Part shown: positions 19,641 through 52,815 of the stretch, one piece after another
How the letters are laid out: the number at the start of each line of letters is the position of its first letter
How positions within the stretch are numbered: the first letter of the stretch is position 1
Source of the DNA: Muribaculum sp.
GTDB lineage: Bacteria; Bacteroidota; Bacteroidia; Bacteroidales; Muribaculaceae
Assembly: GCA_023666965.1 (NCBI GenBank)
Contig: JAMPAZ010000007.1
Location: 1 to 62,142 of the forward strand
Direction: 5' to 3'
Length of the DNA: 62,142 bases
Notes under the pieces: generated by a model
What the model saw: the letters and a program-made list of their open reading frames with translations, nothing else
What the model was told of the DNA's origin: nothing
Databases searched by the model: none
Position numbers and translations under genes: made by a program

Positions 19641-19751
19641 ATAGTTGCATTATGTTGTTAGAGGTTCTACATATAGTCGCAAAAAAAAAATTACTCGTCA
19701 TCCCGACGAATAATCTTCTTACCTTAAATCTAATACCATGAAAAACTGATA

Positions 19752-45458: not shown

Positions 45459-46502
45459 TCAGTTGTTTTCGGGGCGGAGGGAGCGGACTGTCTCTGCGGC
45501 GCGCCACATCTCGCTTTCGCGAAGCTGACGAAGTTCTTCTTCAAGTCCTTCTCGATAGTCTGCCTTGGTGTTGGAGTCGATTGAGCGTTGTGCCTCGCGC
45601 CCGGTTTTTACGCTGTCGTAAAGTTCATACATTACGGGCTTGATGGCATCGTGGAACGGTCCCATCCAATCTAGAGCACCGCGCTGAGCCGTGGTAGAGC
45701 AGTTGGCGTACATCCAATCCATTCCCTTGGCGGCGAATAGGGGCATGAGCGACTGAGTCAGCTCTTCTACTGTCTCATTGAATGCTTCGGAGGGTGTGTG
45801 TCCGTTTTCGCGAAGCACTTCATACTGGGCGAGGAACAGGCCCTGAATGGCACCCATCAGAGAACCTCGCTCGCCGGTAAGGTCGGAAACGGCCTCGCGC
45901 TGGAATGTGGTTTCGAACAGATAGCCTGATCCTATGCCTATGCCGATGGCGAGAGTGCGTTCGAGCGCCCTGCCGGTGGCATCTTGGTAGACAGCAAAAC
46001 TTGAATTTGTGCCTTTGCCTTCTTTGAAGAGTACACGCAACATAGTGCCAGAACCTTTTGGCGCCACCATTATGACATCAACATCTGCGGGAGGCACGAC
46101 ACCGGTGCGATCGCTCCAATTGATAGCGAATCCGTGGCTGAAATAGAGCGCCTTTCCGGGTGTGAGGTGCTTCTTGATCGTGGGCCATTGAGAGATAACT
46201 GCCGCGTCGCTAAGAAGGCACATGATTATAGTGCCGCGCTTACAGGCTTCTTCGATTGAGAATAGGGTCTCACCGGGAACCCATCCGTCGGCTACTGCTT
46301 TTTCATACGTTTTTCCTTCGCGTTGTCCGACGATTACGTTAAAGCCGTTGTCGCGGAGGTCAAGACCCTGACCGGGGCCTTGGACGCCGTAGCCAAGCAC
46401 GGCGAGAGTCTCGCCTTTCAATACTTCACGCGCTTTTTCCAGAGTGAACTCCTCACGTGTGATGACGGTCTCGTCTACGCCGCCAAAGTTTAATGTTGCC
46501 AT
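45459..46502 (-). CDS. ilvC: Ketol-acid reductoisomerase
   Basis: A 347-aa class I KARI that isomerises and reduces acetolactate/acetohydroxybutyrate in Val/Ile synthesis. NADPH-binding loop in LAVLGYGVQGPGQGLDLRDN, Mg2+ acidic residues in SDLTGERGSLMGAIQGLF, and a C-terminal knotted domain (EVLRENGHTPSEAFNETVEEL). Last gene of ilvD-ilvB-ilvN-thioesterase-ilvC. Confidence 0.95.
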   Translation of the reverse strand: MATLNFGGVDETVITREEFTLEKAREVLKGETLAVLGYGVQGPGQGLDLRDNGFNVIVGQREGKTYEKAVADGWVPGETLFSIEEACKRGTIIMCLLSDAAVISQWPTIKKHLTPGKALYFSHGFAINWSDRTGVVPPADVDVIMVAPKGSGTMLRVLFKEGKGTNSSFAVYQDATGRALERTLAIGIGIGSGYLFETTFQREAVSDLTGERGSLMGAIQGLFLAQYEVLRENGHTPSEAFNETVEELTQSLMPLFAAKGMDWMYANCSTTAQRGALDWMGPFHDAIKPVMYELYDSVKTGREAQRSIDSNTKADYREGLEEELRQLRESEMWRAAETVRSLRPENN

Positions 46503-46534: not shown

Positions 46535-47272
46535 TTAAATGATTTCATTATAGATTATTGAGGCTCTTGCACAAGTCCCTGAGTCGCCATTGATTTCGCA
46601 TCGGTATTCGCCGGGCTCTTTCGGCTCTACGGCCACGTTGACATGCTCGCCGAAATGGGATTCGTGCATGAAGGCTATGTCCAGTCGATGCATACGATGT
46701 GTGTCGTGAAACTGAAGGTCCCACTGGTCGAGCAGAAGTTCGATGTAGCGCACAGTATTCACGTGGCGGTTGAAGTCGCAGTCGGTGTAGCGGAATGTAT
46801 ATTCGTTGACTTTAGCCACGGAGGGGTCTACCGCCGTTAATTTCGGGCACTTTGCAATGGGACATGGCCGGTCGGAGACAACTTCGCCGAGCTTCTCGAG
46901 TCCGTTGAGTTGGCCTCCTTGACGTGTGCGGATGTTGATGGTCATCCAGACCGACCGGGCATATCCGAGCACACGTCCTTCGGAATCGGTAATTTCAAAG
47001 TCGCGTTCCGAGAAGTGCCGATTGTAGCCTTCGACCCAAGTGCGCAGCGAGTATGGCTTATTGACTTCGGGCCAGCGAAGCATCTCGATCGACAATCTGG
47101 AAAGCACCCATGCCGTTCCGTCTTCGAGTAGGCGTTCGTAGCCCACTCCGAGTTGGTTGGCGTGCATAGTGGCAATCTCGATAAGACGATTTGCAATTAG
47201 CGTGACGGGTATAGTGCCTTCCGGAGAACATTCGCCGGCGGTCAAGAAATAGTCGGATACGTATTCGTTCAT
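46535..47272 (-). CDS. Acyl-ACP thioesterase
   Basis: A 245-aa double-hotdog enzyme releasing fatty acids from acyl carrier protein: AWVLSRLSIEMLRWPEV near the N-terminus and the catalytic YTDCDFNRHVNTVRYIELL. It lies inside the ilv operon between ilvN and ilvC. Branched-chain oxoacids prime branched fatty acids, so the location may couple fatty-acid release to branched-chain metabolism (inference). Confidence 0.88.
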   Translation of the reverse strand: MNEYVSDYFLTAGECSPEGTIPVTLIANRLIEIATMHANQLGVGYERLLEDGTAWVLSRLSIEMLRWPEVNKPYSLRTWVEGYNRHFSERDFEITDSEGRVLGYARSVWMTINIRTRQGGQLNGLEKLGEVVSDRPCPIAKCPKLTAVDPSVAKVNEYTFRYTDCDFNRHVNTVRYIELLLDQWDLQFHDTHRMHRLDIAFMHESHFGEHVNVAVEPKEPGEYRCEINGDSGTCARASIIYNEII

Positions 47273-47296: not shown

Positions 47297-47839
47297 TTAA
47301 TTTCGGTTAAGCCTGCGCTCCTGCTCTTCGAGATACATTGTCAGGTATTCTTCGGGCGACTTTGTGACGGCAACTCGGCCGGAACGTACGAATTGGCGAA
47401 TGTCGTACTTTTTAAGTTCCTCAAAAAGGGCTTCGGTCTCGTTGGAATGTCCGGTTTTTTCGATGATCACATATTCGCGTGTGATTTCGAGAATCCGTGC
47501 ATTGTGTCGGCGAATAATTTCTTCAACGGTTCTGTCGTCGAGAAGTTGAGGCGTAGGCACTTTATATAACGCCACTTCTTGATAAACTATTTCATCGTCG
47601 GTGTATAAAAATGACTTGAGAACGTCGATTCGCTTCTCGATTTGTTTAACAACTCGCTCCATCATGGGCCGGTTGCTGAAGCACGTAATGGTGAATTTAT
47701 GTATTCCGCTGATAGACGAGGGGCTGACTGACAGACTCTCGATGTTTAGATTGCGTCGGGTGAAGATGATGGAAATCTGATTGAGCAGTCCCACTTGATT
47801 TTCGGTAAACACTGTCACTGTGAATAGTTGTTCGTCCAT
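47297..47839 (-). CDS. ilvN: Acetolactate synthase regulatory subunit
   Basis: A 180-aa small subunit: an N-terminal ACT domain (TVTVFTENQVGLLNQISIIF, LNIESLSVSPSSI) that binds valine for feedback inhibition, and a second ACT-like C-terminal half. It follows ilvB by 21 bp. Confidence 0.93.
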   Translation of the reverse strand: MDEQLFTVTVFTENQVGLLNQISIIFTRRNLNIESLSVSPSSISGIHKFTITCFSNRPMMERVVKQIEKRIDVLKSFLYTDDEIVYQEVALYKVPTPQLLDDRTVEEIIRRHNARILEITREYVIIEKTGHSNETEALFEELKKYDIRQFVRSGRVAVTKSPEEYLTMYLEEQERRLNRN

Positions 47840-47860: not shown

Positions 47861-49576
47861 TTAATCGGTGGGATATACTTCATTCGGGTTAAGCATCACA
47901 TAGTCGACATTTCCGCCTGCGGGGGTCATAGGGAACACCATGTCGGTCTCGTCGATGTTGACGTTGATCAGGTAAGGGCCGTCGTGGTCGAGCATACGCT
48001 GGATAGCTTGGTCGAGCTTGTCGCGGGAAGGCACGTCTTCGGCCTCAATTCCGTAGGCTTTGGCAATCATCACGAAGTCGGGGTTGACAAGCGGAGTCTG
48101 AGAGAAGCGGTTCTTAAAAAAGAGTGCCTGCCATTGGCGCACGTTTCCCAAAAAATTGTTGTTCAGGAGGATTATTTTTACCTGTGTACCATACTCCATT
48201 ATGGTTCCCAGCTCCTGAATAGTCATTTGGAGACCGCCGTCGCCGGTGAAGAAGCACACGGTTCGGTCGGGGCAACCCATTTTTGCTCCAATGGCGGCCG
48301 GCAAACCGAACCCCATTGTGCCGAGGCCCCCGGAAGTGACTATGCTTCTTGGTTCGGTGAAGCGGGAGTAGCGGGCGGAAAGCATCTGGTTTTGTCCGAC
48401 ATCAGTGACCACGATGGCTCGATGATCGGTGGCTCCGCTGACTTTTGCCACTACTTCGCCCATGGTCATTTTTTGTCCGGCGGGGTGGAGCTCGCGCTCA
48501 ATGACCTTTTCACGTTCTACATCTTCCGGCTTGTCGAACATGGCGAGCCAACGAGGACGCCGTCGAGGTTCAACAAGCGGCAGCAACCGCAGGAGGGCTT
48601 GACGGGCATCGCCGTGGATGGTGGCCGTGGTGGGTATGTTTTTGTCAAATTCGGATGCATCGATGTCGATGTGCACTATCTTGGCATTTGGAGCATAGGT
48701 CTTGACGTTGCCGGTGATTCGGTCGTCGAATCTCATGCCGATGGCAATGATTAAGTCGGCGCGGTTGGTGTTGATGTTAGGGCCTATGTTGCCGTGCATA
48801 CCGAGCATACCTTTGTAGAGAGGATGGTCGGAAGGTATGGTGGAGAGTCCGAGAAGGGTGGCGGCTACCGGTATGTCGGACTTTTCGGCCAGTTGCGCCA
48901 ATTCCGTTTCCGCGCCTGAAATCATCACTCCGTGCCCCGACAGAATCATCGGTCGCTCGGACTGATTGATTAAGTCGGCTACTTTAAGCACGTCGGCTTC
49001 CGGAATGTCAGGCATCGGATTGTAGGAACGGATAAACGTGCATGGTTTGTAGTCGAACTCGGTCACTCCGACTTGTGCATCTTTGGCAATGTCGAGCACC
49101 ACCGGACCCGGACGGCCTGTCGATGCTATATAGAATGCGCGTGCTACAGCCCATGCCACATCTTCGGCACGGCGTATTTGGTAGCTCCATTTGGTGATTG
49201 GTTGAGTGATTCCCACAACGTCAGTCTCTTGAAATGCGTCGAATCCTAAGAATGGGGTTGCCACCTGACCCGTGATAACCACTAACGGGGTGCTGTCCAT
49301 CAGCGCGTCGCTCAAACCGGTGATGACGTTGGTGGCCGCCGGTCCGGAGGTGACAATGACTACGCCTGTCCGTCCGGTCACACGTGCATAACCTTGTGCG
49401 GCGTGGGTGGCTCCCTGTTCGTGGCGCACGAGAATGTGTTTCAGCCGATCTTGATAGTCGAATAATCGATCGTATACCGGCATAATGGAGCCTCCGGGAT
49501 AGCCAAAAATCAGGTCGACCCCTTCACAGATGAGCGACTGTATAAGCGCGTCGGATCCTGTAATAAGTTCTTTCAT
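47861..49576 (-). CDS. ilvB: Acetolactate synthase catalytic subunit
   Basis: A 571-aa TPP- and FAD-dependent enzyme. N-terminal PYR domain with FGYPGGSIMPVYD and the catalytic Glu in VRHEQGATHAAQGYAR. Central FAD domain (LGMHGNIGPNINTNRADL). C-terminal TPP domain with GDGGLQMTIQEL and LLNNNFLGNVRQWQ. It condenses pyruvate with pyruvate or 2-oxobutyrate. Confidence 0.95.
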   Translation of the reverse strand: MKELITGSDALIQSLICEGVDLIFGYPGGSIMPVYDRLFDYQDRLKHILVRHEQGATHAAQGYARVTGRTGVVIVTSGPAATNVITGLSDALMDSTPLVVITGQVATPFLGFDAFQETDVVGITQPITKWSYQIRRAEDVAWAVARAFYIASTGRPGPVVLDIAKDAQVGVTEFDYKPCTFIRSYNPMPDIPEADVLKVADLINQSERPMILSGHGVMISGAETELAQLAEKSDIPVAATLLGLSTIPSDHPLYKGMLGMHGNIGPNINTNRADLIIAIGMRFDDRITGNVKTYAPNAKIVHIDIDASEFDKNIPTTATIHGDARQALLRLLPLVEPRRRPRWLAMFDKPEDVEREKVIERELHPAGQKMTMGEVVAKVSGATDHRAIVVTDVGQNQMLSARYSRFTEPRSIVTSGGLGTMGFGLPAAIGAKMGCPDRTVCFFTGDGGLQMTIQELGTIMEYGTQVKIILLNNNFLGNVRQWQALFFKNRFSQTPLVNPDFVMIAKAYGIEAEDVPSRDKLDQAIQRMLDHDGPYLINVNIDETDMVFPMTPAGGNVDYVMLNPNEVYPTD

Positions 49577-49627: not shown

Positions 49628-51454
49628 CTAAAGCATTCTCACACCGCCCTTGTCGGCAGACGAAACCATCGCGGCATAGGCCCGGAGCGCAAGGCTGACA
49701 CTGCGGTCGCGACCACGGGGGGAGAATGCTTCTGGTCCTCTTGCCTCTTCTTCGGCGCGGCGTCGCGACAATTCTTCATCGCTGACCCTTACGTTGATAG
49801 CTCGGGCGGGAATGTCGATGTCTATAATGTCGCCGTCGCGAACCAGTCCGATAGCTCCACCGGCAGCGGCTTCCGGCGATATGTGTCCGATCGACAGCCC
49901 CGACGTGCCTCCTGAGAAGCGGCCGTCGGTGATTAGGGCGCACTCTTTGCCAAGATGCTTCGACTTTATGTAACTGGTGGGATATAGCATCTCCTGCATT
50001 CCGGGACCGCCTTTAGGCCCTTCATGGGTAATGACCACCACGTCGCCGCTGTTTACTTTGTCGCGGAGAATGCCGTCGACCGCCTCTTCTTGTGAGCGGA
50101 ATACTCTGGCCGGCCCGCTGAACCGGAACAGCGCTTCGTCGACACCCGCTGTCTTGACAACGCATCCGTCGAGCGCAATGTTCCCGCGGAGCACCGCTAA
50201 ACCGCCATCTTTAACGTAGGCGTGTTCAAAATCGCGGATACAACCGGAGGCGCGGTCGTTGTCGAGCGAGTCGTATTGTGCGGATTGCGAGCCGAGGTGT
50301 ATGTTGCGTCCTCCGCCGGGTGCGCTCAGCCATAAGTCGCGTGCTTTGTCGGAAAAACGGGTGCCTTCGATGGCGTAAAGGTCGATGGCCTCGGCCAAAG
50401 TCAGTCCGTCGACGCGCTTCACCGATGTGTCGAGTAGCCCACGGTCGGCAAGCTGGCGCATTATTGACATGATGCCTCCGGCTCGGTTGACATCCTGGAT
50501 GTGGTATTTTGAATTTGGTGCCACTTTGCACAGCACCGGTGTCACTCTCGACAGCCGGTCTATGTCGGAGATGGTGAAGTCGGCTCCGGCTTCGTGTGCT
50601 ATGGCGAGGAGGTGCAGGACGGTGTTGGTCGAGCCGCCCATGGCTATGTCGAGCGACATGGCGTTGAGCATGGCCTGGCGCGATGCAATGGAGCGTGGCA
50701 GTACGCTTTCGTCGCCGTCGCGATAGTATGCGTAGGAGTTTTCGACAATTTTACGGGTGGCTTCGCGGAACAGTTCGTTGCGGCGGGCGTGGGTGGCTAC
50801 GAGGGTTCCGTTTCCGGGGAGTGCCAGTCCGAGTGCTTCGTTAAGAGAGTTCATTGAGTTGGCCGTGAACATACCGGAGCACGAACCACAAGTGGGACAC
50901 CCTTTCTCTTCGAGGAGCTTAACGACATTGTCGCTTACGGAATCGTCGGCAGAGTCGACCATGATGTCGATCAAATCGAGTGGACGTCCGTTGAGTTCGC
51001 CGGCCTCCATCGGGCCGCCGGACACGAATATTGCCGGGATGTTGAGCCGCATAGCCGCCATCAGCATTCCCGGAGTTACTTTGTCGCAATTTGAAATGCA
51101 TACCATAGCGTCGGCCTTATGGGCATTTACCATATATTCGACCGAATCGGCGATCAAGTCGCGTGAGGGCAGGGAGTAGAGCATACCGTCGTGTCCCATG
51201 GCGATGCCGTCGTCAATGGCGATGGTATTGAACTCGGCGGCGAAGCATCCGAGGCGCTCTATCTCTCGTTTTACGGTTTGGCCTATTTCGTGGAGATGCG
51301 TGTGGCCGGGAACAAACTGTGTGAATGAGTTGACCACAGCGATTATGGGTTTTCCCATCTGCTCTTCGGTCATTCCGTTTGCTCGCCACAGAGCCCTTGC
51401 TCCGGCCATTCTGCGGCCGGATGTGCTGGCGGCGCTACGTAAAGGCTTTTTCAT
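49628..51454 (-). CDS. ilvD: Dihydroxy-acid dehydratase
   Basis: A 608-aa Fe-S dehydratase making the 2-oxo acid precursors of Val and Ile. Cluster Cys residues lie in [11 protein letters not shown] and [34 protein letters not shown] is near the C-terminus. First structural gene after the attenuator leader; the gap to ilvB is 51 bp. Confidence 0.95.
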
Positions 51455-51552
51455 ACGTTCTTTTCAATATTTCTTTTTTTCTTTTTCATACATTTCGGGT
51501 CCGTCGGGCTTTATGAAGCGTTTTCGAAACATACCCGGTTAATAATATCGGC

Positions 51553-51588
51553 AAAGCCCCCGTGTCGGTCAACGACTACGGGAGCTTT
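51553..51588 (-). terminator. Attenuator hairpin of the ilv operon
   Basis: Minus-strand RNA forms an 11-bp stem (AAAGCUCCCGU with ACGGGGGCUUU, one U-G pair) with a 14-nt loop. Seven bases of its 5' arm (51579-51585) are exactly complementary to the end of the leader ORF (51629-51635), giving a mutually exclusive antiterminator helix. The tail after the stem is weak in U (UUU inside the stem, then GCCG), so termination strength is uncertain. Confidence 0.65.
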
Positions 51589-51624
51589 GTATGGATTATA
51601 TAATGCTTTATATTGGCAATAAAA

Positions 51625-51699
51625 TCACGCTCCCGCCTGATGTAGAAGGGTAATGACCACTCGCAGGTGGCTCGTGATAATAATGACATCAGTAAGCAT
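51625..51699 (-). CDS. ilv leader peptide (attenuation)
   Basis: A 24-codon ORF starting about 28 nt downstream of the -7 box. Eleven residues are Leu, Ile or Val, clustered as V-I-I-I, L-R-V-V-I and T-L-L; it ends H-Q-A-G-A. This is the composition of branched-chain leader peptides known from enterobacterial ilv operons. Its last codons (GCG GGA GCG) overlap the antiterminator strand, so ribosome stalling at scarce Leu/Ile/Val tRNA would free that strand to break the downstream hairpin. Confidence 0.8.
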   Translation of the reverse strand: MLTDVIIITSHLRVVITLLHQAGA

Positions 51700-51726
51700 T
51701 CGATGTATATTTGTAGTATTTGAGTG

Positions 51727-51734
51727 CAAAAGTA
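51727..51734 (-). promoter_or_regulatory. -7 box of the ilv operon
   Basis: TACTTTTG on the minus strand fits TAnnTTTG, with a TTTTGG -33 candidate about 19 bp upstream. Transcription would begin around 51720, just before the leader ORF. Confidence 0.65.
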
Positions 51735-51846
51735 TGATATTTTGCCAAACTGACCAAAACTTTTAAGAAAAAATTGCAGTTAAAACACCATTTTTATTAT
51801 TTTTAGGCGGAAATGATACAATGGTGTCTTAAAATCCTGTAAACGA

Positions 51847-52815
51847 TCATTTATTCTGATAGTTTTCAAACATACGTCTTATGGCATCAAAACGTAGCTG
51901 ATGGTAAAGTTTGGCCTGTGGCGAGTCGGGAACAACACCTTCAAAGGCATGCATCACACCGGGAATGACATGGATTTCTGTGCTGACGCCTGCACAAATC
52001 AATCGTTGTGCATACTTCAGACTAGCCATGCAGAAGAGGTCGAGCGAACCAACTATGATGAATGTCGGAGGCAGATTGTCCACATTCTTTGCAAGGGCAG
52101 CTGAGAAATAGGGGAGTTCTTCTTCTGTCAGTTTCTGATTGCCGAGGAGTGTTGACCAGCCCAAGCGGTTATACTCAGGTGTCCAAATAAAATCTCCTGC
52201 GTATGGGTTCGGCATCTGATCGTCAGCCGTGCAGGTGCGACAGTCGAGCATGGGGTAAGTAAGCGCTTCGCCGCAGAGAGGCACACGGCCTTTGTCGCGA
52301 TTGTAAAGAGCGAGTCGTGCAGCAAGGCCACCGCCGGCGCTTTCACCGGTTATGACTATGCGCTTGGGGTCGGCACCGAATTCTGCCGCATGGTCATAGA
52401 CATATTCAAGACCGGCGTAGCAGTCATGTATGTCGGCAGGGAAAGGCGCAATCGTAGCTATACGGTATTCAACACTTACAAGTATGGCCTGTAATTCATT
52501 GGTTATCACATCCGGCGGTGTAAGCATCGTGTTGGCATCGCCTATTACGTATCCTCCGCCGTGGATGAAGTACACGATAGGGAGCGCCCCTTGTCGGGTA
52601 AGTTTTGTGGGCTTCCAGATATAGAGGTCGATGGAATTGCCATCTATACCTTTGATGGTGATTTTTTCCGAGCCGGGCAATTTTTTGCCTCCGGCCAGCA
52701 TCCCTATGAGTGGGTTTTTGTCGAGAGGCATCTGTCCGGCCGCATATATCTCGTCGATATTGGGGAGTTGATACTCCTTGGCCAAAAGATATTTTGACTT
52801 AATTTTTTGTTCCAT
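51847..52815 (-). CDS. Alpha/beta hydrolase (hormone-sensitive-lipase type)
   Basis: A 322-aa esterase-like protein with oxyanion motif HGGG (85-88), nucleophile Ser159 in GESAGGG, Asp in VGSLDLFC and His in IPGVMHAFEG. No signal peptide. It follows the glutathione peroxidase gene by 8 bp on the same strand. Acts on small esters; substrate unknown. Confidence 0.88.
   Translation of the reverse strand: MEQKIKSKYLLAKEYQLPNIDEIYAAGQMPLDKNPLIGMLAGGKKLPGSEKITIKGIDGNSIDLYIWKPTKLTRQGALPIVYFIHGGGYVIGDANTMLTPPDVITNELQAILVSVEYRIATIAPFPADIHDCYAGLEYVYDHAAEFGADPKRIVITGESAGGGLAARLALYNRDKGRVPLCGEALTYPMLDCRTCTADDQMPNPYAGDFIWTPEYNRLGWSTLLGNQKLTEEELPYFSAALAKNVDNLPPTFIIVGSLDLFCMASLKYAQRLICAGVSTEIHVIPGVMHAFEGVVPDSPQAKLYHQLRFDAIRRMFENYQNK

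Follow-up and report, generated by a model that had tools for sequence, protein, structure and literature searches.

The window analysed here, a stretch of 62,142 nucleotides from Muribaculum sp., is one complete contig of a genome that is 83% complete, and carries on its minus strand a branched-chain amino acid operon headed by ilvD. The locus raises the question whether the short reading frame upstream of ilvD encodes a leader peptide through which the ribosome governs transcription of the operon, as in the enterobacterial leader attenuators of E. coli ilvGMEDA, ilvBN, trp and his. A preliminary description had interpreted it in this way. We consider it likely, on the sequence evidence given below, that the element is a ribosome-mediated transcription attenuator of the trp/ilv kind, acting on the operon composed of the following genes:

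49628..51454, minus strand, ilvD, dihydroxy-acid dehydratase (NF009103 and TIGR00110 above cut-offs)
47861..49576, minus strand, ilvB, acetolactate synthase large subunit (TIGR00118 above cut-off)
47297..47839, minus strand, acetolactate synthase small subunit (TIGR00119 above cut-off)
46535..47272, minus strand, acyl-ACP thioesterase, flanked within the operon by the small subunit gene and ilvC (PF01643 and PF20791 above cut-offs)
45459..46502, minus strand, ilvC, ketol-acid reductoisomerase (TIGR00465 above cut-off)

The nearest named relative of the IlvD protein is that of Heminiphilus faecis, with 85% identity, and the genes are ordered on the minus strand as listed. Elsewhere in the window, positions 19681-19748 of the minus strand match FopS, a Bacteroidetes paralogous sRNA family (RF04319, 59.2 bits with a gathering score of 56). 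Upstream of ilvD the minus strand reads, from 5' to 3', esterase gene (stop at 51847), hairpin, promoter box, leader ORF, second hairpin and ilvD, with these features:

51780..51832, minus strand, hairpin 3' of the esterase gene (-16.3 kcal/mol for 51775-51850; 0 of 200 shuffles as good)
51727..51734, minus strand, promoter box TAnnTTTG, TACTTTTG (from the sequence)
51625..51699, minus strand, predicted leader peptide ORF of 24 codons, MLTDVIIITSHLRVVITLLHQAGA, 11 of the 24 being Ile, Leu or Val (from the sequence; similar ORFs in relatives)
51643..51660, minus strand, last control codon cluster, codons 14-19, Val Val Ile Thr Leu Leu (from the sequence)
51629..51636, minus strand, predicted antiterminator segment at the ORF end, pairing with 51585-51578 (0 of 50 shuffles as good; co-change between lineages)
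51552..51589, minus strand, predicted terminator hairpin, whose 5' arm contains the antiterminator partner 51585-51578 (folding energy against shuffles)
51540..51555, minus strand, weak U-tract after the hairpin (U score 3.62, 8th lowest among 145 loci)

The promoter box and the 24-codon ORF with its 11 Leu, Ile and Val codons (51699-51625) were found where the preliminary description had placed them. The box lies 35 nt before the leader ATG, and 20 nt further upstream of it stands a TTTG (51758-51755), which fits the phylum's -33 element. In relatives a TAnnTTTG box is present within 110 nt upstream of the leader ATG at 114 of 136 loci (mean of 20 shuffles 14.7, maximum 21), typically 28-39 nt before the ATG. 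The VVIT core of the window leader is common to three other genomes of the same genus (L082, L083 and L084), and the codons for the operon's own amino acids are clustered, as in attenuators of the trp/ilv type.

Taken by itself, the window ORF is only slightly enriched in Ile, Leu and Val (binomial P = 0.02 for an assumed background of 0.26). This, and the position of the region between two genes, would suit an ORF that arose by chance next to the ordinary terminator of the esterase gene upstream. That reading is hardly credible, as the esterase gene has its own hairpin at 51832-51780, probably its own terminator, the promoter box stands in between, and ORF, pairing and spacing recur in relatives. 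The hairpin before ilvD was accordingly rejected as the ordinary terminator of the upstream gene because that gene has a hairpin of its own.

Conservation was assessed in 209 Bacteroidota ilvD upstream regions, namely 62 from named genome contigs, 40 from a sample of the family (window included) and 107 from a sample of the order. The named contigs gave 80 loci, from which 16 that were not Bacteroidota according to the record title (L031, L032, L046-L048, L055-L057, L061, L062, L067, L069, L070, L076-L078) and the duplicates L001 (= L082) and L003 (= L100) were removed. The family sample comprised 41 genomes with a match, less a fragment in G027; the order sample represents 107 of 126 genomes with a match; three of the others belonged to the family sample as well, and 16 whose matches were of lower score, partial or paralogous were left out. 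A short ORF with at least 5 Ile, Leu or Val in 8 codons, 35-330 nt before ilvD, occurs in 152 of the 209 regions; the other 57 are without one, which counts against the attenuator reading. At the stricter level of at least 6 in 8 codons the ORF is found in 139 of 209 regions vs 12.7 in shuffles, and a composition test gave P<=0.01 in 88 of 209 (2.5 in shuffles) and P<=0.001 in 43 (0.3 in shuffles). By a fixed rule, which asks for such an ORF and for a hairpin that begins no more than 110 nt away and folds at -12 kcal/mol or better, the element is present at 86/107 order loci, 39/62 named contig loci and 15/40 family loci (L103 would be a sixteenth by eye); the distance from hairpin to ilvD is variable among these relatives. 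The short Ile/Leu/Val-rich ORF that had been expected upstream of ilvD in Bacteroidales relatives is thus conserved in position and composition, and because of this conservation the window element is judged to be more than chance.

By the same fixed rule the element is missing at 25 of the 40 family loci (e.g. L085, L088, L090, L092, L094, L095, L104 and L106), a distribution that suggests repeated loss of the predicted ilvD attenuator in the window's family. Several members without it have, by eye, a TTTG-type promoter close to ilvD, so that loss seems common near the window. In Marinifilum, Labilibaculum and Marinifilaceae (L049, L065, L071) two complete units, each of an Ile/Leu/Val leader ORF and a U-tailed hairpin, were seen by eye in tandem about 430 nt upstream of ilvD. 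Outside the order an ORF with at least 6 Ile, Leu or Val in 8 codons is present in 12 of 36 ilvD upstream regions, a raw count without shuffle control, and some of these ORFs are long and probably due to chance. Short Ile/Leu/Val-rich ORFs about 110-200 nt before ilvD, some of them alike in pairs, were noted at L350, L356, L357, L363 and L373 in other orders, likewise without control. At L139 a long hairpin (374-470), about 310-410 nt upstream of ilvD, gave sub-threshold matches to several microRNA precursor families, which are taken as the sign of a long inverted repeat.

The end of the leader ORF and the 5' arm of the hairpin can pair with each other. CGGGAGC (51635-51629) is perfectly complementary to GCTCCCG (51585-51579), exactly the 7-nt match that had been pointed out earlier, and a G-U pair between 51636 and 51578 extends it to 8 bp. 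The duplex of ORF tail and arm reaches -17.3 kcal/mol in the window, vs a shuffle mean of -10.2, and was matched by 0 of 50 shuffles. By energy the local antiterminator fold of the window is ordinary, with 23 of 200 shuffles as good, a point against the attenuator reading. The same duplex was evaluated at 145 loci, 7 of the 152 being left out for hairpins weaker than -9 kcal/mol; hairpins were chosen with a bonus for T, the plain choice having sometimes taken the antiterminator itself (e.g. L034, L054). The best duplex averages -13.1 kcal/mol vs -8.1 for shuffled tails; no shuffle of 50 was as good at 68 of the 145 loci and at most 2 of 50 at 102, so that two helices sharing one arm are found in the window and in most of these relatives. 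The remaining 43 loci failed and only 7 of the 40 family loci passed, both of which weigh against an attenuator.

For a separation of shared ancestry from co-change, loci with unlike arms were kept and their partners exchanged. The letters of the hairpin arm differ by lineage (e.g. CCTTTCTC, CCATTCTC, CCTCTCC and GCTCCCG), and the own partner gave -10.6 to -13.1, the exchanged partner -8.2 to -9.7. Of 5000 permutations, 0 or 1 did as well as the real mean when 15-27 representatives were used; for 8-9 representatives the numbers were 2, 9 and 189, the last in one draw of 8. As own partners beat exchanged ones, the lineages vary the letters yet keep the match on average. The own arm was the single best partner in 4-5 of 15-16 and 5-8 of 26-27 representatives, which counts against. 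The comparison with relatives that the preliminary description had called for favours its reading: ORF tail and arm show co-change between lineages, and the complementarity itself is conserved through changed letters and at a near-fixed distance from the control codons.

This distance agrees with a ribosome-dependent switch. Counted from the first nucleotide of the last control codon, the pairing segment begins at a median of 14 nt (quartiles 12 and 17), roughly where a stalled ribosome would end; at 94 of 145 loci the interval is 12-18 nt, vs 12.6% of shuffled tails. The distance of the segment to the stop codon is looser (10th-90th percentile -21 to +7), and in 100 of 102 loci the segment overlaps the assumed footprint of a ribosome at the stop codon. 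Across loci the spacing is therefore one in which a stall would free the antiterminator segment and a ribosome at the stop codon would cover it. In the window the segment stands 9 nt, not 14, from the last Leu codon; this counts against the attenuator reading and would require a stall one or more codons earlier.

Folding with an assumed ribosome footprint masked, before the 3' arm of the terminator is made, was carried out for the 102 loci with good duplexes. The antiterminator formed at 93 of them with a stall in the middle of the cluster, at 72 with a stall at the last codon, at 61 without a ribosome and at 1 with a ribosome at the stop codon. In the window it formed with the mid-cluster stall and without a ribosome; it did not form with a ribosome at the stop codon or with the last-codon stall, the latter failure counting against. 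The spacing test on all 145 loci is fairer than this masked folding because the 102 loci had been selected by their duplex. With the hairpin complete, the terminator is the favoured fold whatever the state of the ribosome (mean 0.79-0.96), and the switch would therefore have to be co-transcriptional.

As judged by folding, conservation of a protector (1:2) hairpin is weak at best, and such a hairpin is left out of the proposed mechanism. The segment is paired upstream at 0.67 vs 0.56 with shuffled upstream RNA, 75 of 102 loci being above their own shuffled mean; with the arm present at least half of the segment is paired upstream in 40 of 102 loci, and in the window no upstream pairing of the segment was found under that condition. 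Because the protector is weak at best, ON may be the default state wherever one of these leaders goes untranslated. Of the enterobacterial ilv logic that had been proposed for the operon, the switch between antiterminator and terminator stands; the protector hairpin is at best weak and the U-tract is poor in the window.

The hairpin itself (51589-51552) is strong. It has 12 bp and, past a one-base bulge, 4 bp more, with -25.9 kcal/mol, z -5.7 and 0 of 200 shuffles as good; the preliminary description had given its position correctly and its stem, at 11 bp, too short. The weakness of the U-tract, raised there as a caveat, is real: a simple terminator scan of 51400-51900 returned 0 sites, and the low U score of the window is shared by its eight-member clade, with a median of 3.6 vs 5.33 in the 137 other loci (one-sided P 6e-6, ignoring kinship, the clade having been chosen after the hairpins had been read). 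Because the U-tract is short, termination in the window's genus is probably leaky; alternatively, it may be helped by another factor.

The same tail could mean that leader and helices work in relatives, and that in the window's genus the hairpin has become a pause, a Rho-dependent site or a decaying relic, with control weak or lost. The low scores of the clade beside the 5.33 of the other loci and the 5.4 of the his leader in the same genome point this way, as does the absence of the element in many family members. We think this reading unlikely, though by no means negligible: the window hairpin belongs to the stronger ones and retains its pairing partner, and the 14 hairpins at convergent gene ends of a same-genus genome have U scores with a median of 3.52, so that tails of this kind are not unusual there. 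The terminator baseline from genomic stretches is small (1 hairpin in the window; 14, 6 and 11 in three other genomes) and therefore shows no more than that weak U scores are not rare. The weak U-tract would also suit a leader ORF and helices that govern ribosome access to ilvD or RNA stability, with no termination involved. This is quite improbable in view of a hairpin that ends 97 nt before the ilvD start and does not include it, of a hairpin-to-ilvD distance that varies, and of the U scores of the other 137 loci, which are as expected of terminators.

Riboswitches and T-box elements regulate amino acid genes in other phyla, and a metabolite riboswitch or T-box with an incidental ORF has to be weighed against an attenuator. 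An ilvD motif of mechanism unknown has been described from Veillonella and called a weak riboswitch candidate (PMC8632094). Rfam release 15, which includes leaders, T-boxes and riboswitches, gave no match at gathering score near the leader, nor any at E<=1 between 51400 and 51900. The matches that reached gathering score in 20 relatives were two tRNAs and a small SRP RNA, with no cis-regulatory family among them; the leader region of L169 has a sub-threshold His_leader match (28.9 vs 49 bits, E 0.25). Rfam thus offers such an element no support in the window or the 20 relatives, and the codon content of the leaders follows the operon, with His at hisG and Trp at trpE/trpB, which together make it very improbable.

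His-rich leaders, with 4 or more His in 8 codons, precede hisG at 24 of 30 loci of the same order, the best 30 of 37 genomes with a match, and shuffles gave 0. The window's own genome has one (L260, G000:C11, before hisG at 228449), MTAVFIHQCQHHHHHQSTTGGQNRMYV, and behind it stands a strong hairpin whose U-tract is good. Trp-rich leaders precede trpE/trpB; leaders with at least 3 Trp in 8 codons occur up to 1500 nt upstream of trpE, in many cases ahead of the gene before it, at 22 of the 26 loci L278-L303 (0.7 in shuffles), and these leaders contain runs of Trp (WWW). All 26 trpE loci, like every trpE match, are below the curated cut-off of the family, and L304-L307 were left out. Neither His-rich nor Trp-rich leaders were found at the other operons tested. 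Upstream of leuA, Ile, Leu or Val at 6 in 8 codons was found at 15 of 27 loci over the cut-off (L335-L337 left out) vs 2.7 in shuffles; the leuA upstream region of the window's own genome has no such leader at 6 in 8. That a single architecture should vary its codons with the operon is difficult to account for unless sensing depends on translation. The sequences themselves show a leader ORF, two helices that exclude each other and vary jointly from lineage to lineage, a nearly constant spacing, and a leader composition specific to the amino acid of each operon. The ilvD leader is one of a widespread set of predicted leaders.

Like the enterobacterial attenuators, the window has a leader rich in codons for the product, an antiterminator and a terminator that share an arm, and a spacing that fits a stalled ribosome. 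It differs from them in belonging to the Bacteroidota, which mostly do without Shine-Dalgarno initiation, in having the pairing segment at the very end of the ORF or over the stop codon, in a protector that is at best weakly conserved in the leaders of this phylum, and in being predicted here from sequence. A genomic survey of leader-peptide attenuation by Lopatovskaya et al. in 2010 reportedly treats the same kind of element and may include Bacteroidetes. Among the matches listed from the open literature, titles and the beginnings of abstracts contain no description of a Bacteroidota ilvD leader; the 2010 survey may cover one.

For the Corynebacterium ilvBNC leader and the ilvB-II, ilvB-OMG and Leptospira ilvB motifs attenuation has been proposed (PMC10272879). 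As presented there, these resemble the window in an Ile/Leu/Val-rich upstream ORF, an ilv operon and a terminator stem; they differ in standing before ilvB, where the window has ilvD, and in their lineages, and the window leader is without an Rfam match. In Bacteroides thetaiotaomicron a putative attenuator of the pheA operon, taken from Merino's web site, is listed in Table 7 of PMC1173090. It is likewise predicted at an amino acid operon of the Bacteroidota; the operon is another one, and the passages on it give neither a leader peptide nor a test. Long 5' UTRs of the same species contain short ORFs 'reminiscent of leader peptides', for example at BT_4401 (PMC7366714), so that leaders are recognised in the phylum in general terms, ilv not being named in that passage.

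The attenuator interpretation of the preliminary description is upheld by the conserved Ile/Leu/Val ORF and the conserved complementarity of ORF tail and arm, and very probably, as far as the sequence indicates, the arrangement shuts the branched-chain amino acid operon down when Val, Ile and Leu are plentiful. For the leader we infer translation, stalling, termination and its regulation as follows. The RNA would start downstream of the TAnnTTTG box, and a ribosome would begin the leader ORF. With charged Val, Ile and Leu tRNAs it would reach the stop codon and cover 51636-51629; the hairpin 51589-51552 would then fold and RNA polymerase would stop before ilvD. Were one of these tRNAs scarce, the ribosome would stall within the Val-Val-Ile-Thr-Leu-Leu stretch and leave 51636-51629 free just ahead of it, to pair with 51585-51578 before the 3' arm is made; with the antiterminator formed, transcription would continue into ilvD.

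Shine-Dalgarno initiation is mostly absent from the Bacteroidota. A more general view, which we offer tentatively and hold to be rather doubtful, is that the Bacteroidales possess a set of leader-peptide attenuators (for Ile/Leu/Val, His, Trp and probably Leu) in spite of this scarcity, so that ribosome and RNA polymerase would have to be kinetically matched without it, and that most of them are two-helix switches lacking a protector, in which an untranslated leader would mean ON, unlike in E. coli trp. The interest of the element lies in the phylum, in its scarce Shine-Dalgarno initiation and in the tests that it makes possible. If the attenuator works in this way, it would supply a ready-made reporter for whether transcription and translation run in step in Bacteroidota as well as amino-acid-responsive switches for gut Bacteroides, and would explain a class of short ORFs in their genomes. 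If the switch works as proposed, many Bacteroidales would tune branched-chain synthesis by the codon-wise reading of a peptide, and histidine and tryptophan synthesis likewise.
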